Source of the DNA: Flagellimonas sp. MMG031
GTDB taxonomy: Bacteria; Bacteroidota; Bacteroidia; Flavobacteriales; Flavobacteriaceae
Reading direction: 5' to 3'
DNA length: 64,000 bases
NCBI RefSeq assembly: GCF_040112705.1
Contig: NZ_CP157804.1
Span: 1,614,501-1,678,500, forward strand
Position numbers and translations under genes: made by a program. The notes under the pieces are model-generated. The model did no database searches, was not told where the DNA came from, and was given only the letters and a program-made list of their open reading frames with translations. Below are positions 306 through 45,121 of this stretch, one piece after another; position 1 is the first letter of the stretch; each line of letters opens with the position of its first letter.

Positions 306-2255
306 ATGCTGAAAAGAATACTCATAGTATCGATAATCATTTACGGATGCTTTCAAAAGGCAACAGCGCAACAGGACAGTATTCCCGATAAGCAAATTGA
401 ACGGATTGTGGAAAGGGCCGATGAGCGCTATCAACAATATTCCTTTAGTCCGGCCATCGATATCTACAAAAAAGTGTTGGACAGGGGCTATTCTTCGTCC
501 GACCTTTTAAAAAAACTGGGTAATTCCTACTATTTCAATGCAAAGTATCAAGAAGCTGCCGACACCTACGGTAAGTTGGAGAAAAGCTATCCGAACGACA
601 TGTCCGTGGAGGATATCTTCCGTTATGCGCAGAGTTTAAAGTCCATTGGGAATTATGAAGAATCGAACAGGGTTATGGAAAACTTTAGGGAGTTGACCGC
701 TGCCATGGTGGATTTTGATGTGGATTATATGGCCAAGATCGAAGAAAATTCAGGTAGATACGATATAAAACCATTTCCTTACAACAGTGCATATTCCGAT
801 TTTGCTGCGGCCTATTACGAGAAGGGGCTCATTTTTGCATCGGACAGGGATACAGGAAACTTTGCCAGATATCGTCATACCTGGAACGCCAGTGACTTTT
901 TGGATTTATATAAGGTGGATGCCGATAGCGCTTCCCAAGGGAAGGTGATGAAATTGGAAGGGGACGTAAACACCCGTTTGCATGAATCCACATCTGTGGT
1001 AACCAAAGATGGCACGACCATGTATTTTACTCGGAACAACTTTTTCGACGGTCGAAGGAAAAAGGATGAAGAAGGAATAATTCGTCTTAAAATCTATAGT
1101 GCCGAGTATGTTGATGGTGAATGGACCAATATCGTAGAGCTCCCCTTTAACAGTGATTCCTATTCCGTGGCGCACCCCATGCTCAGTCCAGACGAAAAGA
1201 AGCTCTACTTTGTTTCCGATATGACAGGGAGCCTAGGGGCATCCGATATATTTGTCACCGAAATCATAGGGGATGGAACCTATGGTCCTATCCAAAACCT
1301 GGGAAGTAACGTCAATACCATTGGAAGGGAGACTTTTCCATATATTACGGAAGAAGGAGTACTATATTTTTCTTCGGATGGGCATCAAGGATTGGGAGGA
1401 TTGGATGTATTTGCCACAAAAATCACCTATAACGATTATTCACAGCCAGTAGTCAACGTAGGAAGGCCGGTAAACTCGCCCAAAGATGATTTTTCGTTCA
1501 TTTACAGGGCAAACGACAAAACAGGATACTTCGCATCTAACCGCGAAGGAGGTATGGGAGGCGACGACATCTATGAATTCGTGGAGACCGAACCACTTAC
1601 TCTGGACTGTATCCAAGAAGTCACAGGTACCGTTAGAGATCGTATTTCCAATGAAGTGTTGGCCGGTGCCACTGTTAAGATAATTGACGAAGAAAATAAT
1701 GAGATTTCATCGACCATTACCGATTCTGATGGAAACTACATACTGATGCTCGATTGTTCCAAAGGAAATTTTGTTAGGGCATCAAGGGACGGTTACGTTC
1801 CGGCAGAAGAATATCTGCCCATATCTGACGGAAAGCCAAGGATTGTTGATTTTTATCTGGAGCGCGATTTGGTGACAGGAGGTTTTGGTGACGACTTGGC
1901 CAAATTGCTGCAATTGAGCACCATCTACTTCGACCTCAACAAGTACGATATACGACCCGATGCGGAGATTGAGATTCAAAAGGTAATCGTGGCCATGGAG
2001 AAATATCCAAGTTTAAAAATCAAGGTAAACTCCCATACCGATAGCCGGGGAGTTGATGCCTACAACCTTTGGTTGTCCCAAAAACGGGCCGAATCCACTG
2101 TTAACTACATGATATCGAAGGGTATTGCCCCAGATAGGCTGGAAGGTGAAGGATTTGGAGAGATCAGATTGGTAAATGATTGCATTAACGGCATACCATG
2201 TTCAGAAGAACAACATCAATTAAACCGTAGATCCGAGTTCATCATATTTGAATAG
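306..2255 (+). CDS. PorE-like OmpA-family protein (TPR + PD40 propeller + CRD + OmpA domain)
   Basis: This 649-residue secreted protein starts with a signal peptide (about residues 1-21, ending near ATAQQ). The order of domains is TPR-like helices (about 45-130), PD40/WD40-like propeller repeats (about 190-425; LSPDEKKLYFVSD is one blade), a carboxypeptidase-regulatory-like domain (about 435-520; GTVRDRISNEVLAGATV), and a C-terminal OmpA peptidoglycan-binding domain (about 535-649; YFDLNKYDIRPDA, SHTDSRG, RRSEFIIFE). The same order is known for PorE of the type IX secretion system, which links outer-membrane components to peptidoglycan. It lies 11 bases behind a PorP gene and is followed by a terminator. 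Paralogues of PorE commonly accompany adhesin/PorP cassettes, so I read it as a cassette-specific relative and not as the core component. Confidence 0.88.
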   Translation: MLKRILIVSIIIYGCFQKATAQQDSIPDKQIERIVERADERYQQYSFSPAIDIYKKVLDRGYSSSDLLKKLGNSYYFNAKYQEAADTYGKLEKSYPNDMSVEDIFRYAQSLKSIGNYEESNRVMENFRELTAAMVDFDVDYMAKIEENSGRYDIKPFPYNSAYSDFAAAYYEKGLIFASDRDTGNFARYRHTWNASDFLDLYKVDADSASQGKVMKLEGDVNTRLHESTSVVTKDGTTMYFTRNNFFDGRRKKDEEGIIRLKIYSAEYVDGEWTNIVELPFNSDSYSVAHPMLSPDEKKLYFVSDMTGSLGASDIFVTEIIGDGTYGPIQNLGSNVNTIGRETFPYITEEGVLYFSSDGHQGLGGLDVFATKITYNDYSQPVVNVGRPVNSPKDDFSFIYRANDKTGYFASNREGGMGGDDIYEFVETEPLTLDCIQEVTGTVRDRISNEVLAGATVKIIDEENNEISSTITDSDGNYILMLDCSKGNFVRASRDGYVPAEEYLPISDGKPRIVDFYLERDLVTGGFGDDLAKLLQLSTIYFDLNKYDIRPDAEIEIQKVIVAMEKYPSLKIKVNSHTDSRGVDAYNLWLSQKRAESTVNYMISKGIAPDRLEGEGFGEIRLVNDCINGIPCSEEQHQLNRRSEFIIFE

Positions 2256-2280
2256 ATCTGGTTCATTTTTATAATGTAAA

Positions 2281-2309
2281 GCGACTCCTTTTTGGGGTCG
2301 TTTTTTTTT
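2281..2309 (+). terminator. Intrinsic terminator after the PorE-like gene
   Basis: A seven-base stem (2282-2288 with 2294-2300, one G-U pair) around a TTTTT loop is followed by a run of nine T. It ends the PorP-PorE transcript and separates it from the giant-protein operon. Confidence 0.75.
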
Positions 2310-2478: not shown

Positions 2479-2510
2479 ATTTTCTACGGCTAAAACTCAG
2501 GGTAATTTTG
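2479..2510 (+). promoter_or_regulatory. Bacteroidota-type promoter for the giant-protein operon
   Basis: TAATTTTG at 2503-2510 matches the Bacteroidota -7 consensus TAnnTTTG exactly. A TTTTC at 2479-2483 lies 19 bases upstream as a possible -33 element. Transcription would begin near 2517, leaving a leader of about 100 bases before the ATG at 2617. This also argues against the earlier in-frame ATG at 2512. The rest of the 2310-2478 gap is AT-rich and I see no gene in it. Confidence 0.6.
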
Positions 2511-2616: not shown

Positions 2617-5600
2617 ATGAAGAAGAGCATTCTAGCCCTATTATTTCTTTTTTCAACAGGAATAGCTTTTTCGCAAACCACGGTAACCCTTCAGGACCAA
2701 TGTAACTGCGAAGTCTTAAAAGGAACTGACGTCTCGGGTTCAGGAGCAACAACTCCGGCGGGAGCAGACCTTGGTGATATTTATGTTAACACCAACACAG
2801 GTACCATTTACTTCTGGGATGGGGATACTTGGGAATTGACCGCTTCGGATGATCAACAGCTGACAGGTTTTACCTTTAATGATGCAACCAATACACTATC
2901 GCTTACTTTGGAAAATGGCGGAAGCGTCAATGTAGATTTAAGCAGTTTGAGCGATACGTTAACAGATTCAAACACCACGGTGACGTCTTTCGGGATTGAT
3001 GGTACGAATACGAATTTGGTTATCACCGACTCTGATTCGAACACCTTTGCTGTGGCATTGGCAGATTTGGCAGCCTTAATTGATACGGACACCCAATTGA
3101 CAGATGCCCAAGTGGCCACAGCGGTGAACAACGAGTTCCCGAATCTGGACACGGACAGCACAGACGATTTTTCAGGAGACTTTGGCGATTTGACCAACGT
3201 ACCGGCCAACTTGGATTTGGATTCCACCGACGATTTTGACGGTCAGTGGAGCAGCCTTACCGGGGTTCCGGCAGACTTCGCCGATAACGTGGACAATGTG
3301 GACGACGCGGACAACGACCCTTCGAACGAATTGCAGACCATCACTTCCACAGACGGAACGGTGACGGTAACACCTAACGGCAACGACTTTGACCTTTCAG
3401 GTTTCAGCGGAGACTTTGGAGACCTATCCAATGTTCCTGCGAACTTGGATACCGATAGTACGGATGATTTCTCTGGAGATTTCAATGATTTGACCAATGT
3501 TCCAGCGAATCTGGACACCGATAGTACAGATGATTTTGACGGTCAGTGGAGCAGCCTTACCGGGGTTCCGGCAGACTTCGCCGATAACGTGGACAATGTG
3601 GACGACGCGGACAACGACCCTTCGAACGAATTGCAGACCATCACTTCCACAGACGGAACGGTAACGGTAACACCCAACGGCAACGACTTTGACCTTTCAG
3701 GTTTCAGCGGAGACTTTGGAGACCTATCCAATGTTCCTGCGAACTTGGATACTGATAGCACAGATGATTTCTCTGGAGATTTCAATGATTTGACCAATGT
3801 TCCAGCGAATCTGGACACCGATAGTACAGATGACTTTTCTGGTGACTTTGGCGATTTGACCAACGTACCGGCCAACTTGGATTTGGACTCCACCGATGAT
3901 TTCGACGGTCAGTGGAGCAGCTTGACGGGAGTTCCTGCAGGTTTTGCGGATAATATCGATAACGACACCCAATTGACCGATGCCCAAGTGGCCACGGCGG
4001 TGAACAATGAGTTCCCGAATCTTGATACGGACAGTACAGACGACTTTTCAGGAAACTTTGGTGATTTGACCAACGTGCCTGCCAACTTGGACTTGGACTC
4101 GACCGACGATTTTGACGGACAGTGGAGCAGCCTTACGGGAGTTCCTTCAGATTTCGCTGATAACGTGGACAACGTGGACGATGCGGACAACGACCCAGCC
4201 AACGAATTGCAGGCCATCACTTCCACAGACGGAACGGTAACAGTGACCCCCAATGGCAACGACTTCGACCTATCCGGTTTCAGCGGAGACTTTGGAGACC
4301 TATCCAATATCCCTGCAAACTTGGACACCGACAGCACAGATGATTTTGACGGTCAGTGGAGCAGCTTGACAGGAGTTCCTGCAGGTTTTGCGGATAATAT
4401 CGACAACGATACCCAATTGACCGATGCCCAAGTGGCCACGGCGGTGAACAACGAGTTCCCAAATCTGGATACGGACAGCACAGATGATTTTTCAGGCGAC
4501 TTTGGAGACTTGACCAACGTACCGGCCAACTTGGATTTGGATTCCACCGATGATTTCGACGGCCAGTGGAGCAGCCTTACGGGAGTTCCGGCCGACTTCG
4601 CAGATAACGTGGACAATGTTGACGATGCGGACAACGACCCCGCGAACGAATTACAGGCCATCACATCCACCGACGGAACAGTGACTGTAACACCGAACGG
4701 CAATGACTTTGACCTATCCGGTTTCAGCGGAGACTTTGGAGATCTATCCAATATCCCTGCGAACTTGGACACCGACAGCACTGATGATTTCTCTGGCGAC
4801 TTTGGTGACTTGACCAATGTACCTGCCAACTTGGACTTGGATTCCACGGATGATTTTGACGGCCAGTGGAGCAGTCTAACGGGAGTTCCAGCCGACTTCG
4901 CCGACAACGTGGACAACGTGGACGATGCGGACAACGACCCAGCGAACGAATTGCAGGCCATCACTTCCACCGACGGAACAGTGACGGTAACGCCGAACGG
5001 CAACGACTTTGACCTTTCAGGTTTCAGCGGAGACTTTGGAGATTTATCCAATGTTCCTGCGAACTTGGATACTGATAGCACAGATGATTTCTCTGGAGAT
5101 TTCAATGATTTGACCAATGTTCCAGCGAATCTGGACACCGATAGTACAGATGACTTTTCTGGTGACTTTGGCGATTTGACCAACGTGCCCGCCAACTTGG
5201 ATTTGGATTCTACCGACGATTTCGACGGACAGTGGAGCAGTTTGACAGGTGTTCCAGCGGACTTCGCCGACAATGTGGACAACGTGGACGATGCCGATTC
5301 CGTTGTGGGCAACGAGTACAACACCGGTAGTTCCATAACCGATGGTGTTTTGGGCATCACGGATGGCGGCGGAACTGAACAAGTGGATTTGATCAGCAAC
5401 GATGCCAACAACAATATCACCTTTGGTTCCGATGGGGCGCTTTACCTGAACGTAGCTTCGGTAAGTATAGCGGAGACCATCACAAACCTAACCGATAACA
5501 ACAATGGTACTGTTACCTATGTCAATGAAAATGGGGTGTCCCAGACGATCAATAAGTCAGCGATCACGGACAACCTCGATGGAACCTACACATTTGACAA

Positions 5601-8600
5601 TGGCGATGGTTCACCGATAACCTTTATTGGAACCGACAACGATACCCAATTGACCGATGCCCAAGTGGCCACGGCGGTGAACAACGAGTTCCCAAATTTG
5701 GACACGGACAGCACTGACGATTTCGACGGACAGTGGAGCAGCTTGACAGGTATCCCTGCGGACTTTGCTGATAACGTGGACAACGTGGACGATGCGGACA
5801 ACGACCCAGCTAACGAATTACAGGCCATCACCTCTACCGACGGAACAGTGACGGTAACCCCCAACGGCAACGACTTTGACCTATCCGGTTTTAGCGGAGA
5901 TTTTGGAGACCTATCCAATGTTCCTGCGAACTTGGATACTGATAGCACAGATGATTTCTCTGGCGATTTTAATGATTTGACCAATGTTCCAGCGAACTTG
6001 GACACCGATAGTACGGATGACTTCAGTGGAGACTTCAATGATTTGACCAACGTTCCTGCCAATCTGGATTTAGATTCCACCGATGATTTTGATGGACAAT
6101 GGAGCAGCTTGACGGGAGTTCCTGCAGGTTTTGCGGACAATATCGACAACGATACCCAATTGACAGATGCCCAAGTGGCCACTGCGGTGAACAACGAGTT
6201 CCCGAATCTGGATACGGACAGTACAGACGATTTTTCTGGTGACTTTGGCGATTTGACCAACGTGCCTGCCAACCTGGACTTGGATTCCACCGACGATTTT
6301 GACGGACAGTGGAGCAGCTTGACAGGTATCCCAGCGGACTTCGCCGACAATGTGGACAACGTGGACGATGCGGACAACGACCCCGCGAACGAATTGCAAG
6401 CCATCACTTCCACAGACGGAACAGTGACGGTAACCCCCAACGGCAATGACTTTGACCTATCCGGTTTTAGCGGAGACTTTGGAGATCTATCCAATATCCC
6501 TGCGAACTTGGACACCGACAGCACCGATGATTTTGACGGTCAGTGGAGCAGCTTGACAGGAGTTCCTGCAGGTTTTGCGGACAATATCGATAATGATACC
6601 CAATTGACCGACGCCCAAGTGGCCACAGCGGTGAACAACGAGTTCCCGAATCTGGATACGGACAGTACCGATGATTTTTCAGGCGACTTTGGCGATTTGA
6701 CCAATGTACCTGCCAACTTGGACTTGGACTCCACCGACGATTTCGACGGCCAGTGGAGCAGCTTAACGGGAGTTCCGGCAGGTTTTGCGGACAATATCGA
6801 TAACGATACCCAATTGACAGATGCCCAAGTGGCCACGGCGGTGAACAACGAGTTCCCAAATCTTGATACGGACAGCACAGATGATTTTTCAGGCGACTTT
6901 GGAGACTTGACCAACGTACCGGCCAACTTGGATTTGGATGCCACGGATGATTTCGATGGTCAGTGGAGCAGCTTGACGGGTATCCCAGCGGACTTCGCAG
7001 ATAACGTGGACAACGTGGACGATGCGGACAACGACCCAGCTAACGAATTACAGGACATCACCTCTACCGACGGAACAGTGACGGTAACACCGAACGGCAA
7101 CGACTTTGACCTATCCGGTTTCAGCGGTGACTTTGGGGACCTATCCAATGTTCCTGCCAACTTGGATACAGATAGTACAGATGATTTCTCTGGAGACTTT
7201 AGAGACTTGACCAACGTGCCCGCCAATTTGGATTTGGATTCCACCGATGATTTTGACGGACAGTGGAGCAGCTTGACAAGTGTTCCGGCCGACTTCGCCG
7301 ATAACGTGGACAACGTGGACGATGCGGACAATGACCCAGCTAACGAATTGCAGACCATCACCTCCACCGACGGAACAGTGACGGTAACACCGAACGGCAA
7401 CGACTTTGACCTCTCAGGTTTCAGCGGAGACTTTGGAGACCTATCAAACGTACCTGCAAACTTAGATACCGATAGTACCGATGATTTCTCTGGCGATTTT
7501 AATGATTTGACCAATGTTCCTGCGAACTTGGACACGGATAGCACAGATGATTTTTCAGGTGATTTTAATGATTTGACCAACGTGCCTGCTAATCTGGATT
7601 TGGATTCTACCGATGATTTTGACGGACAATGGAGCAGCTTAACGGGAGTTCCAGCAGGTTTTGCGGACAATATCGACAACGATACCCAATTGACAGATGC
7701 CCAAGTGGCCACAGCGGTGAACAACGAGTTCCCGAATCTGGATACGGACAGCACAGATGATTTTTCAGGAGACTTTGGCGATTTGACCAACGTTCCTGCC
7801 AATTTGGATTTAGATTCCACGGATGATTTCTCTGGTGATTTCTACGATTTGACCAATGTTCCAGCGAATCTGGACACCGATAGTACAGATGACTTTTCTG
7901 GCGACTTTGGTGACTTGACCAATGTGCCGGCAAACTTGGACTTGGATTCCACTGATGATTTTGACGGACAGTGGAGCAGCTTGACGGGTATCCCAGCGGA
8001 CTTCGCCGATAATGTGGACAATGTGGACGATGCGGACAACGATCCTGCCAACGAATTACAGGCCATCACTTCCACAGACGGAACAGTGACGGTAACCCCC
8101 AACGGCAATGACTTTGACCTATCCGGTTTCAGCGGAGACTTTGGAGATCTATCCAATATCCCTGCGAACTTGGACACCGACAGCACCGATGACTTTGACG
8201 GACAGTGGAGCAGCTTGACAGGAGTTCCTGCAGATTTCGCCGATAACGTGGACAATGTGGACGATGCGGACAACGACCCTGCCAACGAATTACAGGCCAT
8301 TACCTCCACCGACGGAACGGTGACGGTAACACCGAACGGCAACGACTTTGACCTATCCGGTTTCAGCGGAGACTTTGGAGACCTATCAAACGTACCTGCA
8401 AACTTAGATACCGATAGTACGGATGATTTCTCTGGCGATTTCAATGATTTGACCAATGTTCCTGCAAACCTGGACACGGACAGCACTGATGATTTCGACG
8501 GTCAGTGGAGCAGCTTAACGGGAGTTCCTGCAGGTTTTGCGGACAATATCGACAACGATACCCAATTGACCGATGCCCAAGTGGCAATGGCGGTGAACAA

Positions 8601-10707
8601 TGAGTTCCCGAATCTGGATACGGACAGTACCGACGATTTTTCTGGCGACTTTGGCGATTTGACCAACGTTCCTGCCAACTTGGACTTGGATTCCACGGAT
8701 GACTTTGACGGACAGTGGAGCAGCTTGACAAGTGTTCCGGCCGACTTCGCTGACAATGTGGACAATGTGGACGATGCGGACAACGACCCTTCGAACGAAT
8801 TACAGGCCATCACATCCACAGACGGAACAGTGACGGTAACACCGAACGGCAACGACTTTGACCTATCCGGTTTCAGTGGGGACTTTGGGGACCTTTCCAA
8901 TGTTCCTGCGAACTTGGACACGGATAGCACGGACGACTTTTCAGGCGACTTTGGAGACTTGACCAACGTACCGGCCAACCTGGATTTGGATTCCACCGAC
9001 GATTTTGATGGACAGTGGAGCAGCTTGACAGGAGTTCCAGCAGGTTTTGCGGACAACATTGATAACGATACCCAATTGACCGACGCCCAAGTGGCCACGG
9101 CGGTGAACAACGAGTTCCCAAATCTGGATACGGACAGCACAGATGATTTCTCTGGAGACTTTGGAGACTTGACCAACGTACCGGCCAACCTGGATTTGGA
9201 TTCCACCGACGATTTTGATGGACAGTGGAGCAGCTTGACAGGTATCCCTGCAGGTTTTGCGGACAATATCGACAACGATACCCAATTGACAGATGCCCAA
9301 GTGGCCACTGCGGTGAACAACGAGTTCCCGAATCTGGATACGGACAGTACAGACGATTTTTCTGGTGACTTTGGCGATTTGACCAACGTGCCTGCCAACC
9401 TGGACTTGGATTCCACCGACGATTTTGACGGACAATGGAGCAGTCTAACGGGAGTTCCAGCCGACTTCGCCGACAATGTGGACAACGTGGACGATGCGGA
9501 CAACGATCCTGCGAACGAATTACAGGCCATCACATCCACCGATGGAACGGTAACGGTAACACCGAACGGCAACGACTTTGACCTATCCGGTTTTAGTGGT
9601 GACTTTGGAGATCTATCTAATGTTCCAGCGAACTTGGACACCGACAGCACCGATGATTTTGACGGTCAGTGGAGCAGCTTGACAGGAGTTCCAGCAGGTT
9701 TTGCGGACAATATCGACAACGATACCCAATTGACAGACGCCCAAGTGGCGACAGCGGTGAATAACGAGTTCCCGAACTTGGACACCGATAGTACAGATGA
9801 TTTTGACGGTCAGTGGAGCAGCCTTACGGGAGTTCCGGCCGACTTCGCCGATAACGTGGACAACGTGGACGATGCTGACAACGACCCTGCGAACGAATTG
9901 CAGGCCATCACATCCACCGACGGAACGGTGACGGTGACACCGAACGGCAATGATTTTGACCTGTCAGGTTTCAGCGGAGACTTTGGAGACCTTTCCAATG
10001 TTCCAGCGAACTTGGACACCGATAGTACGGATGATTTTTCAGGAGACTTTGGCGATCTGACCAATGTACCTGCCAACCTGGATTTGGATTCCACGGATGA
10101 TTTCGATGGTCAGTGGAGCAGCTTGACAGGTATCCCTGCGGACTTCGCCGATAACGTGGACAACGTGGACGATGCCGATGCCAGTGTCACCAACGAAATC
10201 AATACGCGTTTTGAAGTGAATGGAGCCAATCTTGAGATAGAGGATAGCAACGGTACACTTCAAGTAGCCTTGGCTGATATCGATACGGACGACCAAACGG
10301 CAGCGCAAGTGAATTCAGATTCACCTGTAGATGTGGATGGAGACGGAAATACTGAAGCTACCGTTGAGGATGTCATTCAAGATATAGCACCGATCACATC
10401 AAAAGCGGCAAGAATATTTTACCCTCCTTCCATCGCCATTGATGCTTCAACAAACGGAACAGGAAGAACTGTTGATTTGTATGCACAATACGTGGCGCAA
10501 TATGGAACACCAGCAGTATCAAGTGCAGGAGCGCCTACCGCTCTTCCAACGTATAGTGCAGCCGAATTGTATTACTACGTAACCTATGCGGATCCAACGG
10601 TGTTCGACAATATGAGTATTGATGCTAATGGAGTGTTGACCTACGACATAATTGGTCAGCCAGCCGATTATAATGCATTGATCAACGTAGTGTTTGTGGT
10701 AAGATAA
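2617..10707 (+). CDS. Giant acidic repeat protein, putative surface fibre or adhesin (2,696 aa)
   Basis: The start chosen is ATG 2617, which begins a signal peptide (MKKSILALLFLFSTGIAFSQ); an in-frame ATG at 2512 lies on the promoter. Residues about 21-157 form a non-repetitive head containing DIYVNTNTGTIYFWDG and short beta-type segments, a style common in Bacteroidota fibre-like proteins. Residues about 158-2518 are tandem repeats of four module types, interrupted by one unique island (about 894-1008). Residues about 2519-2696 form a distinct C-terminal domain (RIFYPPSIAIDAS, AAELYYYVTYADPTVF, YDIIGQPADYNALINVVFVV). The array is rich in Asp, Asn, Thr and Gly; I find no Cys, one Arg and, in the island only, one Lys. 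Neither a type-A nor a type-B T9SS sorting domain is visible. Two bases separate it from the next gene, which does carry a type-B domain. A fibre role is inference from repeats and neighbours; no function was recognised. Confidence 0.85.
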   Translation: MKKSILALLFLFSTGIAFSQTTVTLQDQCNCEVLKGTDVSGSGATTPAGADLGDIYVNTNTGTIYFWDGDTWELTASDDQQLTGFTFNDATNTLSLTLENGGSVNVDLSSLSDTLTDSNTTVTSFGIDGTNTNLVITDSDSNTFAVALADLAALIDTDTQLTDAQVATAVNNEFPNLDTDSTDDFSGDFGDLTNVPANLDLDSTDDFDGQWSSLTGVPADFADNVDNVDDADNDPSNELQTITSTDGTVTVTPNGNDFDLSGFSGDFGDLSNVPANLDTDSTDDFSGDFNDLTNVPANLDTDSTDDFDGQWSSLTGVPADFADNVDNVDDADNDPSNELQTITSTDGTVTVTPNGNDFDLSGFSGDFGDLSNVPANLDTDSTDDFSGDFNDLTNVPANLDTDSTDDFSGDFGDLTNVPANLDLDSTDDFDGQWSSLTGVPAGFADNIDNDTQLTDAQVATAVNNEFPNLDTDSTDDFSGNFGDLTNVPANLDLDSTDDFDGQWSSLTGVPSDFADNVDNVDDADNDPANELQAITSTDGTVTVTPNGNDFDLSGFSGDFGDLSNIPANLDTDSTDDFDGQWSSLTGVPAGFADNIDNDTQLTDAQVATAVNNEFPNLDTDSTDDFSGDFGDLTNVPANLDLDSTDDFDGQWSSLTGVPADFADNVDNVDDADNDPANELQAITSTDGTVTVTPNGNDFDLSGFSGDFGDLSNIPANLDTDSTDDFSGDFGDLTNVPANLDLDSTDDFDGQWSSLTGVPADFADNVDNVDDADNDPANELQAITSTDGTVTVTPNGNDFDLSGFSGDFGDLSNVPANLDTDSTDDFSGDFNDLTNVPANLDTDSTDDFSGDFGDLTNVPANLDLDSTDDFDGQWSSLTGVPADFADNVDNVDDADSVVGNEYNTGSSITDGVLGITDGGGTEQVDLISNDANNNITFGSDGALYLNVASVSIAETITNLTDNNNGTVTYVNENGVSQTINKSAITDNLDGTYTFDNGDGSPITFIGTDNDTQLTDAQVATAVNNEFPNLDTDSTDDFDGQWSSLTGIPADFADNVDNVDDADNDPANELQAITSTDGTVTVTPNGNDFDLSGFSGDFGDLSNVPANLDTDSTDDFSGDFNDLTNVPANLDTDSTDDFSGDFNDLTNVPANLDLDSTDDFDGQWSSLTGVPAGFADNIDNDTQLTDAQVATAVNNEFPNLDTDSTDDFSGDFGDLTNVPANLDLDSTDDFDGQWSSLTGIPADFADNVDNVDDADNDPANELQAITSTDGTVTVTPNGNDFDLSGFSGDFGDLSNIPANLDTDSTDDFDGQWSSLTGVPAGFADNIDNDTQLTDAQVATAVNNEFPNLDTDSTDDFSGDFGDLTNVPANLDLDSTDDFDGQWSSLTGVPAGFADNIDNDTQLTDAQVATAVNNEFPNLDTDSTDDFSGDFGDLTNVPANLDLDATDDFDGQWSSLTGIPADFADNVDNVDDADNDPANELQDITSTDGTVTVTPNGNDFDLSGFSGDFGDLSNVPANLDTDSTDDFSGDFRDLTNVPANLDLDSTDDFDGQWSSLTSVPADFADNVDNVDDADNDPANELQTITSTDGTVTVTPNGNDFDLSGFSGDFGDLSNVPANLDTDSTDDFSGDFNDLTNVPANLDTDSTDDFSGDFNDLTNVPANLDLDSTDDFDGQWSSLTGVPAGFADNIDNDTQLTDAQVATAVNNEFPNLDTDSTDDFSGDFGDLTNVPANLDLDSTDDFSGDFYDLTNVPANLDTDSTDDFSGDFGDLTNVPANLDLDSTDDFDGQWSSLTGIPADFADNVDNVDDADNDPANELQAITSTDGTVTVTPNGNDFDLSGFSGDFGDLSNIPANLDTDSTDDFDGQWSSLTGVPADFADNVDNVDDADNDPANELQAITSTDGTVTVTPNGNDFDLSGFSGDFGDLSNVPANLDTDSTDDFSGDFNDLTNVPANLDTDSTDDFDGQWSSLTGVPAGFADNIDNDTQLTDAQVAMAVNNEFPNLDTDSTDDFSGDFGDLTNVPANLDLDSTDDFDGQWSSLTSVPADFADNVDNVDDADNDPSNELQAITSTDGTVTVTPNGNDFDLSGFSGDFGDLSNVPANLDTDSTDDFSGDFGDLTNVPANLDLDSTDDFDGQWSSLTGVPAGFADNIDNDTQLTDAQVATAVNNEFPNLDTDSTDDFSGDFGDLTNVPANLDLDSTDDFDGQWSSLTGIPAGFADNIDNDTQLTDAQVATAVNNEFPNLDTDSTDDFSGDFGDLTNVPANLDLDSTDDFDGQWSSLTGVPADFADNVDNVDDADNDPANELQAITSTDGTVTVTPNGNDFDLSGFSGDFGDLSNVPANLDTDSTDDFDGQWSSLTGVPAGFADNIDNDTQLTDAQVATAVNNEFPNLDTDSTDDFDGQWSSLTGVPADFADNVDNVDDADNDPANELQAITSTDGTVTVTPNGNDFDLSGFSGDFGDLSNVPANLDTDSTDDFSGDFGDLTNVPANLDLDSTDDFDGQWSSLTGIPADFADNVDNVDDADASVTNEINTRFEVNGANLEIEDSNGTLQVALADIDTDDQTAAQVNSDSPVDVDGDGNTEATVEDVIQDIAPITSKAARIFYPPSIAIDASTNGTGRTVDLYAQYVAQYGTPAVSSAGAPTALPTYSAAELYYYVTYADPTVFDNMSIDANGVLTYDIIGQPADYNALINVVFVVR
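3088..10170 (+). repeat. Coding tandem repeat array of about 7.1 kb (four module types, ~40 + 26 + 12 copies)
   Basis: Direct reading of the translation gives these modules. B is 22 residues, opens SGDF and closes DSTDDF (about 40 copies). C is about 56 residues, opens DGQWSSLTGVPADF and closes NDFDLSGF (14 full copies and two that divert after DNVDNVDDAD). D is 20 residues, opens DGQWSSLT and contains VPAGFADNIDN (10 copies). A is 28 residues, opens DTQLTDAQVATAV (12 copies). DNA copies differ mostly at third positions, so copies have drifted at synonymous sites while the protein was held constant. Counts were made by eye and may be off by one or two. A unique stretch at 5296-5640 interrupts the array. 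Confidence 0.92.
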
Positions 10708-10709
10708 TA

Positions 10710-12758
10710 ATGGTCAAAGACGAGTCGATTTTGAAATCCAACACCTCATATAAGTCTTTATACATTGGACTGTTCGTTTTCTTTATAGGAATGAACCTTG
10801 CCAGTGCCCAATTTTTGTTGCAGGCCCCCAATACGGGCGATGAAACGAATTATCGCTGGTATGAGGCATCGGATACATCCACCGTTTTAGGGACCAATTC
10901 ATTTTATGAAGCGACCCAGCCTGGTGTGTATTTTGCCACGTACGATGGGACACTTTGTGGTTCCAATGCAACGGGATATTTTATTTTGACCGACTGTGAA
11001 GCACCCAATAATCAGGTGACTTTGGATATTTCGGCCAGTGTTCCCTCGGGAGCCACAGTAAGTTGGAGTCCCGCTCTTCCCGGTGATCAATCAAGGCCCA
11101 CAGTAACCAGTACACAGACCGTAATGCGATATGTGGCGACCATCACAAAGGTAGGCAACAGCACTTCGCTACCCAGATTTACAGTGGTATGTATGAGCCA
11201 AGCCGCTAACCTGTCGGATGACCTGATCACTGTCAACGAAGATGCATCGGTAACTGTGCCTATTTTCGACAATGATGCGGACATACCTACTACTGGAGTG
11301 TTAACGACGACCGACCCGGCGAACGGTACAGTGAGTATTGATGAAAACGGAACGGCCAACGACCCTTCGGATGATGTGGTCACTTACACCCCAAACCCGG
11401 ATTACAACGGAAGTGACAGTTTTGATTATACCCTTTGTAATTCCTTCGGGGATTGTAGCAACGCAACGGTGACCATTGATGTGCTGCCCATTGTGGACAC
11501 CATCGATGATTCGGTTTCCACGGATATCGGTGTTGATGCTGCGATATCATGGAGAGCAAATGACAATGACATCCCAACGCTTGGAACGATTACCGCGACC
11601 GACCCATCCAATGGAACCGTGGTTTTAAACGACAATGGAACGGCAAACAATCCATCCGATGACGATATTACTTATGTGCCAAATCCTGGATTTACGGGCA
11701 CGGATTCCTTTACTTATACCGTTTGTGATGACAATGGGAACTGTGATACGGCGACCATAACTGTAGTGGTCAATGACCTTGGTGTGGATATCGATAGTGA
11801 TAACGATGGCATCGTGGACGCCTTTGAGGATTTAAATGCGGATAGTGATGATGACCCATCCACTAACCCAACGGACACCGATGGAGATGGAATTCCAGAT
11901 TACCTCGATATCGATAGTGACAATGACGGAATTCCGGACAATATTGAGGCACAGCCTGCTTTGGGTTACCTCGCACCAAGCATGACAGATGCCAACGGCA
12001 ATGGTTTGGATGATGCTTACGAAGCTGATGGCAATCTTGGCCTGATTCCGTTGGATTCCGATAATGATGGTATTCCAGATTATGTGGATGAGGATAGCGA
12101 TAACGACAATGTGCCGGACGCCATTGAAGGACACGATTTGGACCATGATGGCTTACCAGAAGTAACTTTGATAGGTTCCGATAAGGACAACGATGGCTTG
12201 GATGATGGATACGAAGGCGAGACCATGATTGATATCGATATCAATGACGGTATGGACGATCCGAGTACGGCCTTGCCCGATAATGATAGCGATGGTATTC
12301 CAGATTTCAGGGACTCTGACGATGATGACGATGGTATCGAGACCATGGATGAAGATACCAACGCAGATGGTAATTACGCCAATGACGATGCCAACGAAGA
12401 TGGCATCCCGGATTACCTAGACCCAGACTTGGGTGAATTGACCACCGACGAAGAAGTGGTTGATGTCATCAATGTCATCACACCCAATGGGGATGGCGTA
12501 CACGATACCTTAGAGATCCGCGGACTTGAGAACTATCCGAACAACACGGTGAGGATATACAACAGATGGGGTGTAATGGTCTTCCAGACCAAGGCCTATG
12601 CCTCCAGCGGAAATGTATTCGATGGTACATCCCAAGGAAGGGTCACTGTGGACAAGGACAATAAATTACCTGTAGGGACATACTTCTATGTTATCGATTA
12701 TCAAGAGACAAGCGGAAACATGAAACAGCTAACAGGCTACATATACATAAACAGATAA
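10710..12758 (+). CDS. T9SS type-B sorted protein with Ig-like domains and TSP3 repeats
   Basis: A signal peptide ends near residue 34 (NLASAQ). The protein then has a Cys-containing N-terminal region, two cadherin/Big_9-like domains (about 170-260 and 262-352; both carry an NGT...SDD...TYTPNP core and end in C-x5-C), a run of thrombospondin type 3 calcium-binding repeats (about 355-580; DSDNDGIPD and variants), and a C-terminal gliding-motility-associated domain (about 595-682; VITPNGDGVHD, YNRWGVMVFQ, LPVGTYFYVIDY, GYIYINR). The last domain is the CHU_C/TIGR04131 type-B signal of type IX secretion. Type-B proteins usually need a PorP/SprF partner, and one is encoded one base downstream. Surface location is well supported. 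A role in capping or anchoring the giant protein is inference from gene order. Confidence 0.92.
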   Translation: MVKDESILKSNTSYKSLYIGLFVFFIGMNLASAQFLLQAPNTGDETNYRWYEASDTSTVLGTNSFYEATQPGVYFATYDGTLCGSNATGYFILTDCEAPNNQVTLDISASVPSGATVSWSPALPGDQSRPTVTSTQTVMRYVATITKVGNSTSLPRFTVVCMSQAANLSDDLITVNEDASVTVPIFDNDADIPTTGVLTTTDPANGTVSIDENGTANDPSDDVVTYTPNPDYNGSDSFDYTLCNSFGDCSNATVTIDVLPIVDTIDDSVSTDIGVDAAISWRANDNDIPTLGTITATDPSNGTVVLNDNGTANNPSDDDITYVPNPGFTGTDSFTYTVCDDNGNCDTATITVVVNDLGVDIDSDNDGIVDAFEDLNADSDDDPSTNPTDTDGDGIPDYLDIDSDNDGIPDNIEAQPALGYLAPSMTDANGNGLDDAYEADGNLGLIPLDSDNDGIPDYVDEDSDNDNVPDAIEGHDLDHDGLPEVTLIGSDKDNDGLDDGYEGETMIDIDINDGMDDPSTALPDNDSDGIPDFRDSDDDDDGIETMDEDTNADGNYANDDANEDGIPDYLDPDLGELTTDEEVVDVINVITPNGDGVHDTLEIRGLENYPNNTVRIYNRWGVMVFQTKAYASSGNVFDGTSQGRVTVDKDNKLPVGTYFYVIDYQETSGNMKQLTGYIYINR

Positions 12759-12759
12759 A

Positions 12760-13713
12760 ATGGTTACTGTGAAAAAAAAGAACGTCAACATAAACATCCA
12801 ATGGCTGATTGCCCTTCTGTTTTTGGGAGTGGTAAACGTGCAGGCGCAGCAGGATGCACAGTACACCCAATACATGTACAACACGGTCAGCGTGAATCCG
12901 GCCTATGCAGGTTCGCGCGGACATTTGAGCATTGCCGCCCTTTACCGAAACCAATGGTTGGGACTTGACGGTGCTCCGGAAACACAGACCTTGAACCTGC
13001 ACACCCCAGTGGGATATCGTGGAGTGGGGCTTGGCCTCTCTATCGTAAATGATAAGATTGGGCCTACTTCCGAGACTTATTTCGATGTCGATTTTTCCTA
13101 TACCATACAAACTTCTTGGGAAGGAAGGTTGAGTTTTGGCCTTAAGGCCAGTGCCCACATGTTGGATATCCGCTTCTCCGAGCTCGATGAGTTTGAGATA
13201 GACCCCCAATTGCAGTCACAGCAGGATATTCAAAATAAATTTTCCCCAAATATTGGAGCGGGGGTGTACTATCATACCGACAGATTTTATGCAGGTCTTT
13301 CTGCGCCTAGAATATTGGAGACCACGCATTTTGATACATCCTCCATCTCTACGGCAAAAGAACAGATGACCTTATATTTGATAACCGGATATGTTTGGGA
13401 CCTCAATCCCGTACTCAAGTTTAAACCTGCCCTTTTGACCAAAGCCGTCCAAGGAGCGCCACTCCAAGTAGACCTTTCCGCCAATTTTATGTTCAACGAA
13501 AAGTTTATAGGCGGTGTTGCGTATCGTTGGGATGCTGCCTTCAGCGGTCTTATCGGCTTTATGCTGTCCGATCAGTTTATGGTGGGCATTGCCTACGATC
13601 GTGAGATTACGGAGCTGGGAGCCGCTACCTTCAACGACGGTTCCTTCGAAATCATCCTTAGATACGATTTCATCAGAAACATCGGAAACCTAAAATCACC
13701 GCGCTTCTTTTAG
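12760..13713 (+). CDS. PorP/SprF family type IX secretion outer-membrane protein
   Basis: This complete 317-residue protein has a signal peptide ending near VQAQQ (about residue 29) and the family hallmark QYTQYMYNTVSVNPAYAG directly after it. The rest alternates short beta strands, as expected of an outer-membrane barrel, and ends SPRFF. It starts one base after the type-B substrate gene and closes the three-gene operon that begins at 2617. Its C-terminal third is clearly paralogous to the protein at 1-294. SprF of Flavobacterium johnsoniae is required for surface exposure of the giant adhesin SprB, so a similar dedicated role for the two upstream proteins is the simplest reading. No terminator is obvious before idi. 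Confidence 0.93.
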   Translation: MVTVKKKNVNINIQWLIALLFLGVVNVQAQQDAQYTQYMYNTVSVNPAYAGSRGHLSIAALYRNQWLGLDGAPETQTLNLHTPVGYRGVGLGLSIVNDKIGPTSETYFDVDFSYTIQTSWEGRLSFGLKASAHMLDIRFSELDEFEIDPQLQSQQDIQNKFSPNIGAGVYYHTDRFYAGLSAPRILETTHFDTSSISTAKEQMTLYLITGYVWDLNPVLKFKPALLTKAVQGAPLQVDLSANFMFNEKFIGGVAYRWDAAFSGLIGFMLSDQFMVGIAYDREITELGAATFNDGSFEIILRYDFIRNIGNLKSPRFF

Positions 13714-43041: not shown

Positions 43042-44925
43042 CTAGTTTTTATTGACGCGATAGGTTACCCTTCTATTGGTGATCATCGTGTTCACCCGTA
43101 GGGTCAATGTGGCCGTATTGCTCGTTGTAGTCCCACATACAAACGCATCATTGCTTACCACAAGACGGTAAGGGGTGCTGTTTTCGTTCGGGGTTGGATT
43201 GGTAATGGTCAATACATTTGTTGAGGTACCAGAGTAAATCCCCGTATCGGAAAGATTTACCCACGAACTGCCATTGTAGAATTGCCATTGGTACTGATCT
43301 GCCGTCACCGTAGCGGAGATACTTGTGGTACATCCAGGGCAGGTGGTCACATCCACAGGTTGCGAGCTAATCGTAGGGGCAGTTCCCGCTTCCCTAAAAT
43401 CAAATATCGTATTGGAATCTTTGTCGTTTGGTGCGGAATAACCGTCCGAGCCACTGGTTACCATTCCTTCGGAATTTATGGTGACGGGATTTGGTCCCAA
43501 AAGCCCATCATCATTGTTATCCGTAAAACCGGACTCCACCACATCGGTACAACCATCACCATCAGCATCCAGGGTGTAGGCATCATAGGTGCCATCACTA
43601 TCAGAATCAAAAATGGTGTAAGTCAATAGGGCATAGGGTGTGTCGTTGTCCTCAATCCCTGAATAAATTCCATTCGTTCCAGAACTGCTTACTGCGCCGT
43701 CAATTCTACCATCATTGTTGTTGTCGTTGACCCCAGGTTCTTCCAATGCACCCGATTCCACAAGGTCGAATAATCCATCGTTGTCCGAGTCCAGATCAAG
43801 GTGATTACTGATACCATCACCATCCGTATCGCAGATAGCACTGGCAAAAAGTTCCCCAGTGAAGCCCTCTGGTCCCGGTCCTTGTTGGTTGGTCAAGGTG
43901 AAGGTATTGTTGTTGCCCGGTATCCAGGCTATGGTATTGAACGGAGTTCCGCCTTGTGCCTCCATGAGTTCCAAGGAGGTGGCTGAGGTATTTCTGCTTC
44001 CGTACAGGCTAATCATTCCATATTCGTCCACTACCAAACGCAATCTTGGGATGCCGTTGGAGTTGGCGACCCATGGTTGACTGATAAAGCTCCCATCAGA
44101 TTGGAAAACAAAGTACTCGTCACCGGGACCCAGGGCACCATTCTCAAACTCCAAAATGGAGGGGTGCACGGTAGTACCGTTAATATCCAATTGAAAGGAA
44201 TTGTCCATGGAAGAAAAATCGATGCGCAAGTAACCGGTGTCCGTATGGTTGATCACCACGTTACGTTCCCCCACATCGGAGGAAGCTAGAAATGAAGCGC
44301 TAATAGTGGAGCAATACTCCTCTTCATCCGTGATTCCGTCGTTATCATCGTCCAAATCGACTACATCTATGGCACCGTCCCCATCGGTGTCTGTGGATGG
44401 GACAGATGTTGTCGTAATCAATATGTTATCAATGTAGGCACGGTCGTTACTTCCGGACCAGTTGCCGCCACCTTTTATAAAACGGATGGTGGTATTGGCC
44501 GACATATAGGCTGAAATATCTTGACTAAAAGAGCCAGTTTGACTACCTGTGAACGTATCCAATGTTGTGAAAGAGGAACCATCGCTCGAAATTTCAATGG
44601 AAAGTGTCTCTCCACTCTCCAAACTCGAAGTCCTCCAATCAAAGGTCAGGGTGGCCGAAGTGTAAGCACTTAAATCTGCCGACCTTCTTATATTCTCACT
44701 CCATAGATAGTAGAAAAATAATTCCCCGCCGGTGATGCGGATATATCCGTTCGATGCGCTATTGTTATCGTTGTATTCCAGCCAATTGGTGGACCAACTT
44801 TGGGTTCCATCATTATTGGAGTAGGAGACAGCGCTAAAATTATCTGCAAAGGTATCCTGCCCCATGACAGGTAAGTATACTGCGATGGATAGTATAAACA
44901 ATAGTTTGTTTAGACTTTTGGTCAT
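43042..44925 (-). CDS. Secreted TSP3/Ig-like surface protein (627 aa)
   Basis: ATG 44925 opens a signal peptide (MTKSLNKLLFILSIAVYLPV, cut near VMGQ), with a -7 box just upstream. Residues about 25-175 resemble a jelly-roll binding domain (LTFDWRTSSLESGETLSIEI, IRFIKGGGNWSG). Then come thrombospondin type 3-like acidic loops (DTDGDGAIDVVDLDDDNDGI and later copies), a second beta-rich domain (about 220-365), more TSP3 loops (about 370-510) and a C-terminal Ig-like domain with TCPGC and FVCGTT cysteines (about 515-600). It ends in a short basic tail (TNRRVTYRVNKN) and not in a complete type-A or type-B sorting domain. Export by the Sec route is clear; surface attachment is uncertain. The gene interrupts the usual DUF4295-ftsY order. 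Confidence 0.82.
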   Translation of the reverse strand: MTKSLNKLLFILSIAVYLPVMGQDTFADNFSAVSYSNNDGTQSWSTNWLEYNDNNSASNGYIRITGGELFFYYLWSENIRRSADLSAYTSATLTFDWRTSSLESGETLSIEISSDGSSFTTLDTFTGSQTGSFSQDISAYMSANTTIRFIKGGGNWSGSNDRAYIDNILITTTSVPSTDTDGDGAIDVVDLDDDNDGITDEEEYCSTISASFLASSDVGERNVVINHTDTGYLRIDFSSMDNSFQLDINGTTVHPSILEFENGALGPGDEYFVFQSDGSFISQPWVANSNGIPRLRLVVDEYGMISLYGSRNTSATSLELMEAQGGTPFNTIAWIPGNNNTFTLTNQQGPGPEGFTGELFASAICDTDGDGISNHLDLDSDNDGLFDLVESGALEEPGVNDNNNDGRIDGAVSSSGTNGIYSGIEDNDTPYALLTYTIFDSDSDGTYDAYTLDADGDGCTDVVESGFTDNNDDGLLGPNPVTINSEGMVTSGSDGYSAPNDKDSNTIFDFREAGTAPTISSQPVDVTTCPGCTTSISATVTADQYQWQFYNGSSWVNLSDTGIYSGTSTNVLTITNPTPNENSTPYRLVVSNDAFVCGTTTSNTATLTLRVNTMITNRRVTYRVNKN

Positions 44926-44957: not shown

Positions 44958-45121
44958 GTCCGATATCGTGGTTTAGGTGCAACTTTTGTTGTGAAGCAAT
45001 GGGTTTGCAGGGTAAAACACTGCTTTTCTTGGGTTTAAAGGGTGCTCCACTGTGACTTTGGTGATGGTATTCAGGAAGGCTTATTCTAAAATTAGACTAA
45101 ACAAAACTCCCCTTACTTTGC

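Follow-up and report, generated by a model that had tools for sequence, protein, structure and literature searches.

We analysed a stretch of 64,000 nucleotides (the window) from the genome of Flagellimonas sp. MMG031 (contig NZ_CP157804.1, positions 1,614,501 to 1,678,500). Near its start, three genes on the forward strand encode a giant repetitive protein with a C-terminal domain (CTD) of its own, a type-B substrate of the type IX secretion system (T9SS), and a barrel protein of the PorP/SprF family. We found that these genes form a conserved block, and that many genomes with the CTD also encode secreted proteins of several families that end in a common tag of approximately 15 residues. The locus is real, conserved and, as far as our searches show, undescribed. 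From sequence comparison we tentatively suggest that it is a stationary surface display scaffold on which the CTD would dock tagged adhesins.

Conservation of the three-gene block

An initial annotation of this DNA, made from the sequence alone, had described the three open reading frames (ORFs), with spacers of two bases and then one base, and we confirmed all of these. Its assignments of the second and third genes also hold. The middle protein is a type-B substrate, with a C-terminal sorting domain above the curated cut-off and a PorP/SprF gene directly downstream, and the third protein belongs to the PorP_SprF family (PF11751 and TIGR03519; Table 1). The giant has the predicted signal peptide (by eye), and no T9SS sorting domain was detected in it with Pfam, NCBIfam or hhalign. 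The YYYVTYADP core that it had pointed out in the C-terminal domain is real and conserved.

We looked for the CTD in a family sample of 299 genomes. The C-terminal query matched 64 genomes; two of these (G096 and G135; genomes carry G numbers and stretches L numbers) matched in the repeats only and were excluded, leaving 62, this genome included. The stretches of all 61 other CTD genomes were examined. Two further collections were a set of named genomes, consisting of the best 80 of 481 stretches that encode a relative, and a phylum sample of 395 genomes.

The order CTD, type B, PorP was nearly constant. In 52 of the 62 family-set loci the three genes share a strand and follow one another directly; one gene intervened in seven, and three (G177, G196 and G117) had another arrangement. 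The same order was found in 77 of the 80 named loci, or 78 if we count L140, in which an antisense ORF lies over the PorP gene. Among these best 80 of 481, the nearest CTDs were from Muricauda/Flagellimonas and most loci were from related genera. In the phylum sample the CTD occurred in 13 of 395 genomes, all from the same order of bacteria; the family sample shares six of the 13. Queried with a short CTD protein, a protein search returned 333 relatives. Those among the 120 listed were mostly from Chryseobacterium, with two from Dysgonomonas and one from Neptunitalea, and short CTD relatives carry the precomputed Pfam label PF26696. One family of loci (f2) is termed Chryseobacterium-type here, since the listed Chryseobacterium relatives match its short CTD proteins.

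The N-terminal domain (N-domain) of the type-B protein follows the CTD closely. There were 49 strong matches (E 5e-38 or better), each directly behind a CTD, and they fell in 49 of 62 CTD genomes and in 0 of 237 others (Fisher, P 2e-44; the CTD genomes are related, so this value and the Fisher value given for the tag below overstate independence). Ten further genomes, nine of them without a CTD, had only weak matches (E 4e-5 to 6e-4); with these counted, the numbers are 50/62 and 9/237.

These results bear on the earlier proposal that the type-B protein and PorP serve to display the giant. The conservation of the block (52 direct, seven four-gene and three other loci of 62; 77 of 80 named loci) supports that part of it, and from the sequence evidence anchoring through type B and PorP appears probable. 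The further idea, that the CTD is simply the unit that attaches to the type-B protein, was not supported in that form. When the neighbours of CTD homologues were tabulated, most were type B and PorP, and the Chryseobacterium-type loci and a few others lacked them. The initial annotation had named regular occurrence of the CTD without such neighbours as evidence against its model, and this holds in part. We found no type-B or PorP neighbour in L219-L223 (Chryseobacterium-type), G196 or G117 by a single-sequence search, which a very divergent one could escape; PorP genes are present elsewhere in these genomes. The partner can also change. Downstream of the CTD gene in Aquimarina muelleri (L157) and in L163 come a tagged protein and a short type-B protein that lacks the usual N-domain. 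One Chryseobacterium-type genome, G564 (L219 and L223), has four CTD matches, two of them in tandem behind a 3882-amino-acid ORF that ends in ...CIITNPSLTRKIK.

The CTD might still plug into the neighbouring type-B protein, with the giant displayed through type B and PorP and the tag unrelated. Such a plug would account for the near-constant gene order and for the adjacency of all 49 strong N-domain matches to a CTD, but it conflicts with the CTDs that have no adjacent type B or PorP (Chryseobacterium-type, G196 and G117), leaves the co-occurrence of tag and CTD unexplained, and is accompanied by no special co-divergence of the CTD and the type-B N-domain. We consider it unlikely. Across 41 loci, the partial correlation (r) of CTD distances was 0.39 with the type-B N-domain and 0.28-0.38 with other parts of the operon; the known pair of PorP and type-B sorting domain gave 0.70. 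We rejected co-divergence as a guide to the partner of the CTD, as it was uninformative.

A short C-terminal tag accompanies the CTD

The tag has the consensus [VI]ITNR[RK]ITYRVxxN (peptide form VITNRRITYRVNKN) and is likely a beta strand, judging from its sequence. A DNA pattern for NR.ITYRV matched 47 of the 299 family genomes, 40 of the 62 with a CTD and seven of the 237 without. Read by codon, with the 37 positive genomes read by eye, NR[RK]ITYRV was present in 37/62 CTD genomes and in 0/237 others (Fisher, P 5e-31). The remaining matches read NRN or NSR in three CTD genomes (NSR in G075) and something else in the seven genomes without a CTD.

The motif is at the ends of proteins. We checked 40 stretches, three of them controls and 37 from 25 genomes. 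In all 51 tag-bearing frames from these 25 genomes the frame ended 1-5 residues after the motif, and the controls had one 10-residue frame with it. Ten of the 51 proteins were scanned against Pfam. L-type lectin, CBM_4_9, HYR_4C, IgGFc_binding, DUF11 and Big_9 were found above cut-offs and Lectin_C below; for three proteins Pfam gave no match at the chosen limit, and in none of the ten did an NCBIfam or Pfam model extend into the tail. Thus a short conserved C-terminus is present on secreted proteins of different families, as in C-terminal sorting-tag systems.

Conservation is concentrated in the tail. One passenger family has 205 homologues, and among the 120 listed, 114 match the tag expression, four are close variants and two are cut short. 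Mean entropy in this family was 0.69 bits over the last 14 columns, 1.53 over the preceding 14, and 1.08 over residues 116-320.

The pairing extends to the phylum sample, in which a tag profile matched through to the tail in 7/13 CTD genomes and in 0/382 others. Five of the seven are also in the family set; the new ones are G521 and G597. In three phylum genomes (G390, G459 and G513) the matches stop before the tail. The genome analysed here has three proteins found with tag profile A2 (Table 1). The one in the window has Ig-like, galactose-binding-like and TSP3 matches, all below cut-off.

We found that loci with a different type-B partner still pair the CTD with the tag. In L157 and L163 a FYPPS-type CTD has a VITNR-tag gene directly downstream, and L225 has the tail IITNRGITYRV. 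Divergent CTDs have divergent tails beside them. In L220-L223 the CTD gene lies 7-48 bases before a protein ending in VISNPMLP, VISNKNVT, IITNRMIT or VVSNKMIT, respectively. In L219 the CTD comes right after such a protein (IITNPSLT, upstream of the CTDs), and the tail in L224 is VITNPMIY. G030, G094, G257 and G297 have tails of the form [VI]ITNPMLPS... The tagged protein may thus be a more constant partner of the CTD than the type-B protein is, as far as gene neighbourhoods indicate. Some tag genes lie far from the CTD locus (in G143, G191, G215 and G227), so mere neighbourhood is insufficient to explain the pairing.

Ordinary co-inheritance would be another way to obtain such a pattern: the genes would form a surface cluster of one clade, with tag and CTD as old clade markers that are functionally unlinked. 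It is in keeping with this notion that the CTD genomes of both samples fall within one family and its order, and that most named loci are from related genera. However, divergent CTDs and divergent tails are still adjacent in the Chryseobacterium-type genomes, where the neighbourhood is different, and a constraint confined to the tails of different proteins suggests a recogniser. We regard co-inheritance as very unlikely to be the explanation.

A model of display and docking

We suggest the following model for the scaffold. The type-B protein, PorP and a PorE-like protein encoded upstream would together make an anchor that reaches from the cell wall across the outer membrane to the cell surface, by analogy with published trios described below. 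The giant fibre would belong to this anchor, as the synteny suggests. The CTD would be a docking module that binds the tag of approximately 15 residues on secreted proteins (lectin, Ig-like and IgGFc-binding-like), and the anchored fibre would then hold exchangeable adhesins. Docking of the tag on the CTD is a possibility that we put forward with reserve; it draws on the co-occurrence, the distant tagged genes and the constancy of the tag when the type-B partner changes (L157, L163 and L225) or where no type-B neighbour was found (L219-L223). To cross the outer membrane, the giant and the tagged proteins would either ride with the type-B protein or use the CTD and the tag as a new export signal.

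It is also conceivable that the CTD and the VITN tag are solely new classes of T9SS export signal beside types A, B and C, with shuttles of their own and no docking to each other. Both are C-terminal, conserved and behind a signal peptide (by eye), and the organism has SprA and 12 PorP-family matches. A review (PMC10202324) already counts three classes of T9SS signal. Against this explanation, the tag of approximately 15 residues is far shorter than the known signals, which are given as roughly 100 to 235 residues (PMC12618676), profiles of the CTD and of types A and B show no similarity, and the tracking of the CTD by the tag across genomes is left unexplained. We think that it is quite unlikely, somewhat more so than the plug into the type-B protein. 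The initial annotation had recognised no sorting domain in the giant, and hhalign likewise detected no type A or B signal in the CTD (probabilities 0.3 and 0.1, compared with 88 for a type A-type B control) with profiles built from this genome only (10 type A and 16 type B sequences). For a type C (ChiA) signal there was no NCBIfam match in the giant; the presence of that model in the library was unchecked.

Several observations weigh against the scaffold with docked adhesins, in addition to the relatedness of the CTD genomes. None of the three tagged genes in this genome adjoins the giant. The exact NR[RK]ITYRV is absent from 25 of the 62 CTD genomes; twelve of the 25 have variants (G000, G014, G030, G075, G094, G176, G220, G223, G256, G257, G289 and G297), with that of G075 not placed at a protein end, and in the other 13 no tag or variant was seen and no further search was made. 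Tag-ended ORFs were seen in no more than 14 of the 61 family-set stretches and 8 of the 80 named ones; many stretches are cut at contig ends inside repeats, but this does not remove the deficit. In G177 (L066), NRRITYRV is inside a reading frame and not terminal, and there was no clear tag beside the CTD in the loci of G196 and G117. Between the PorE-like gene and the giant there is a terminator-like hairpin, and the PorE-like protein may serve only the type-B protein of its own group. The type-B N-domain does not stand out in the distance correlation. Finally, the shaft in this genome is not collagen-like, so that the claim of a trimeric fibre depends on relatives.

A broader claim joins these elements into a tag-and-dock system of Bacteroidota. 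The strand tag VITNR[RK]ITYRVxxN would route several adhesin families to a docking domain and attach them there; they would be exported and held by type B and PorP, and cargo without a T9SS signal of its own would ride along. The docking domain would be either the end of a clade-variable trimeric giant fibre or a small secreted protein. On the present comparisons we hold this joint claim possible but doubtful. If it is true, T9SS export and anchoring extend to proteins without a known sorting domain, a set of lectin-like and Ig-like proteins on the surface of marine flavobacteria, at present called 'hypothetical' or 'Ig-like domain-containing', gains a common destination, and the tag is a one-line motif for finding cargo in other genomes. 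The earlier model is right in outline, and a model of attachment must account for the tagged proteins.

Structure and variation of the fibre

The longest ORF of the giant begins at 2512; 2617 is the start that carries the signal peptide, after which the protein continues with Q. The mature protein is very acidic (596 D+E and 8 K+R) and has no cysteines except residues 29 and 31, both in the N-domain. The two commonest shaft modules are SGDFxDL[TS]N[VI]PANLD (39 copies) and DGQWSSLT-type repeats (26 copies). The listed 300-base copies of a shaft repeat are 61-95% identical to the reference copy (threshold 60%). No Pfam or NCBIfam match of the giant was above cut-off, and its sub-threshold library matches look like repeat artefacts. 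In alignment A1 of the CTDs, Y14, P16, Y37, Y65, D71 and G84 are invariant. No CTD relative among solved structures was better than E 0.23.

The ends of the fibre are kept and the middle varies. All 13 uncut giants of at least 1,600 amino acids with a FYPPS-type CTD, that of this genome included, have the same N-domain start (QCNCEVL...), and the giant of G014 (2069 amino acids, FYMP-type CTD) starts differently. The SGDFxDLTN-type repeats were found in none of the other genomes of the 62-genome set; 16 of the 62 shafts have collagen-like G-X-Y runs, and other repeats occur elsewhere. We infer that the Cys-containing N-domain and the CTD are fixed and that the shaft is free to vary. The collagen-like shafts argue for trimers, as trimer-type shaft modules are present in the family. 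A long, highly acidic, trimeric fibre is therefore what these relatives would predict, and we consider the trimer rather likely.

In some genomes the CTD is on a separate protein, of 214-228 amino acids in G150, G086, G201, G103 and G177 and of 599 in G176. The ORF directly before it has another C-terminal domain and is in many cases truncated by masked bases or the end of a contig. Both ORF ends are visible in G201 and G176, and there this preceding fibre ORF has the common N-domain; in G150 the N-domain start is on a separate ORF behind masked bases. The CTD is thus modular, and long fibres can have a different end. One such other ending, 'tip2' (YQITFTTALPNANYIIQLS...FMFTVITIPN), occurs in L055 and L079 and in the genes upstream of the CTD in G201, G176, G150, G086, G103 and G177. 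A relationship between CTD and tip2 was rejected, as hhalign with six tip2 sequences showed no similarity.

Phage tail fibres and the tail-fibre-like proteins of Bacteroidota have a fixed N-domain, interchangeable shafts, including collagen-like ones, and a compact C-terminal domain. The giant resembles them in its fixed N-domain, swappable shafts and compact CTD. It differs from phage fibres in its signal peptide and T9SS neighbours. We rejected a phage origin for both the CTD and the shaft. Viral contigs and phage records yielded nothing, the latter searched with the low-complexity filter on, and the PHROG matches of the giant resemble artefacts of its repeats. With the same filter on, the 309 residues that follow the signal peptide had no match in phage records.

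Comparison with anchor complexes and sorting tags

LPXTG and PEP-CTERM are short conserved C-terminal sorting tags on secreted proteins. As with these, a short C-terminus on different families tracks a fixed partner gene across genomes here. The present tag, in contrast, has no hydrophobic helix or sortase motif (by eye), and its candidate partner is not an enzyme but a domain that terminates a fibre.

Type-B surface anchors are described for P. gingivalis (the PG1035-PorP-PorE complex; PMC9143113) and for F. johnsoniae (the static trio Fjoh_3952-3951-3950; PMC12618676). In these trios, as in the locus analysed here, the gene of a type-B substrate is directly followed by that of a PorP-family barrel, and a PorE-like protein is encoded close by. 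Here, however, there is an extra giant fibre with its own CTD, together with tagged proteins throughout the genome, and the PorE-like gene adjoins a second, upstream type-B/PorP pair.

In the SprB-SprF system, too, a PorP/SprF barrel is found near a repetitive surface protein of great length. SprB itself carries a type-B domain, and the Cys-x-Cys (CxC) tail of SprF links to GldK and is used for holding the gliding track, according to PMC12635249. The initial annotation had proposed a variant of this arrangement. The sorting signal is indeed on a separate protein and not on the giant, but the likeness is loose. The PorP barrel of the block contains no cysteine at all, and so has no SprF-type CxC tail, and a Cys-x-Cys in the last 40 residues was found in 0 of 52 adjacent PorPs, which makes a static role likelier. 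A role in gliding is weakened by the missing CxC and by the fact that Muricauda okinawensis 81s02 (L107), whose abstract gives the cells as non-gliding, carries the locus. A literature search, with subscription papers and preprints outside its scope, found no paper with the CTD strings, the tag strings or PF26696, and no description of such a locus among the titles and opening lines of abstracts listed.

Surroundings of the block and transcription

The PorE-like gene ends an upstream group of a type-B gene, a PorP gene and itself, most of which is outside the window. It is on the same strand as the giant block and adjoins it, but it lies behind another PorP gene and is followed by the terminator-like hairpin. 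The best NCBIfam matches of its product were CHU_0125_OmpA (2.1e-119) and T9SS_PorE (7.1e-94), both below cut-off.

Table 1. Positions of the genes, domains and sites discussed (window coordinates unless a stretch or contig is named)
Feature	Position	Strand	Basis or remark
PorE-like TPR/PD40/CarboxypepD_reg/OmpA protein, candidate peptidoglycan anchor	306..2255	+	OmpA E 1.3e-15
Terminator-like hairpin and T tract between PorE-like gene and giant	2278..2304	+	11 pairs; consensus match only
Giant fibre gene, whole	2617..10707	+	ORF coordinates
Giant, signal peptide MKKSILALLFLFSTGIAFS	2617..2673	+	by eye
Giant, conserved N-domain QTTVTLQDQCNCEVL..GDIYVNT..WEL	2674..2870 (3' limit approximate)	+	sequence comparison
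Giant, repeat shaft	2871..10380	+	repeat counts
Giant, CTD, 108 aa, FYPPS...YYYVTYADP...INVVFVVR	10381..10704	+	first row of alignment A1
Type-B T9SS substrate, whole gene	10710..12758	+	Pfam/NCBIfam matches
Type-B protein, own N-domain	10812-11195	+	
Type-B protein, sorting domain	12462-12752	+	PF13585 CHU_C E 2.5e-28; TIGR04131 51.7 bits, cut-off 35
PorP/SprF-family barrel, candidate cognate shuttle/anchor	12760..13713	+	PF11751 E 2.2e-97; TIGR03519 over cut-off
Tagged secreted protein, 627 aa from likely start (ORF listed from TTG at 44982), ending ...MITNRRVTYRVNKN	43042..44925	-	
Tagged protein, tail VITNRGVTYRVNKN	C1:1235849	-	profile A2
Tagged protein, tail VITNRNITYRVNKN	C1:781242	-	profile A2
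Second type-B protein (1127 aa, many DCDGDGV-type repeats), PorP and PorE-like	L092:5950-12255 = genome C1 1610450-1616755		directly upstream of giant's unit

The type-B protein of the block has, in order, a signal peptide (by eye), its N-domain, two Big_9 domains, an acidic TSP3-like region (by eye) and the sorting domain.

A single operon that includes the PorE-like gene is disfavoured by the terminator-like hairpin that intervenes. Upstream of the giant is TAATTTTG (2503..2510, forward strand), which we take to be a possible flavobacterial -7-like box. The full promoter pattern was unmatched there and no -33 box was found; shuffled sequence has at least as many promoter-like and terminator-like sites as the region does. 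The hairpin and the -7-like box would fit a separate transcription unit for the giant block, and the single promoter that the initial annotation assigned to the three genes is a candidate at most.

The genome is one contig of 3.76 Mb and holds SprA, 16 type-B domains above cut-off, 10 type-A domains and the 12 PorP-family matches. One of these matches (G000:C1:1012175-1013020, minus strand) contains one in-frame TAG, and the gene may be broken.

Downstream of the block are genes for an isopentenyl-diphosphate isomerase, a 6-pyruvoyl-tetrahydropterin synthase-like protein and manA. These metabolic genes look unrelated to the block. The isomerase gene is within the first four downstream ORFs in 41 of the 62 family-set loci, this one included, so the neighbourhood itself is old.

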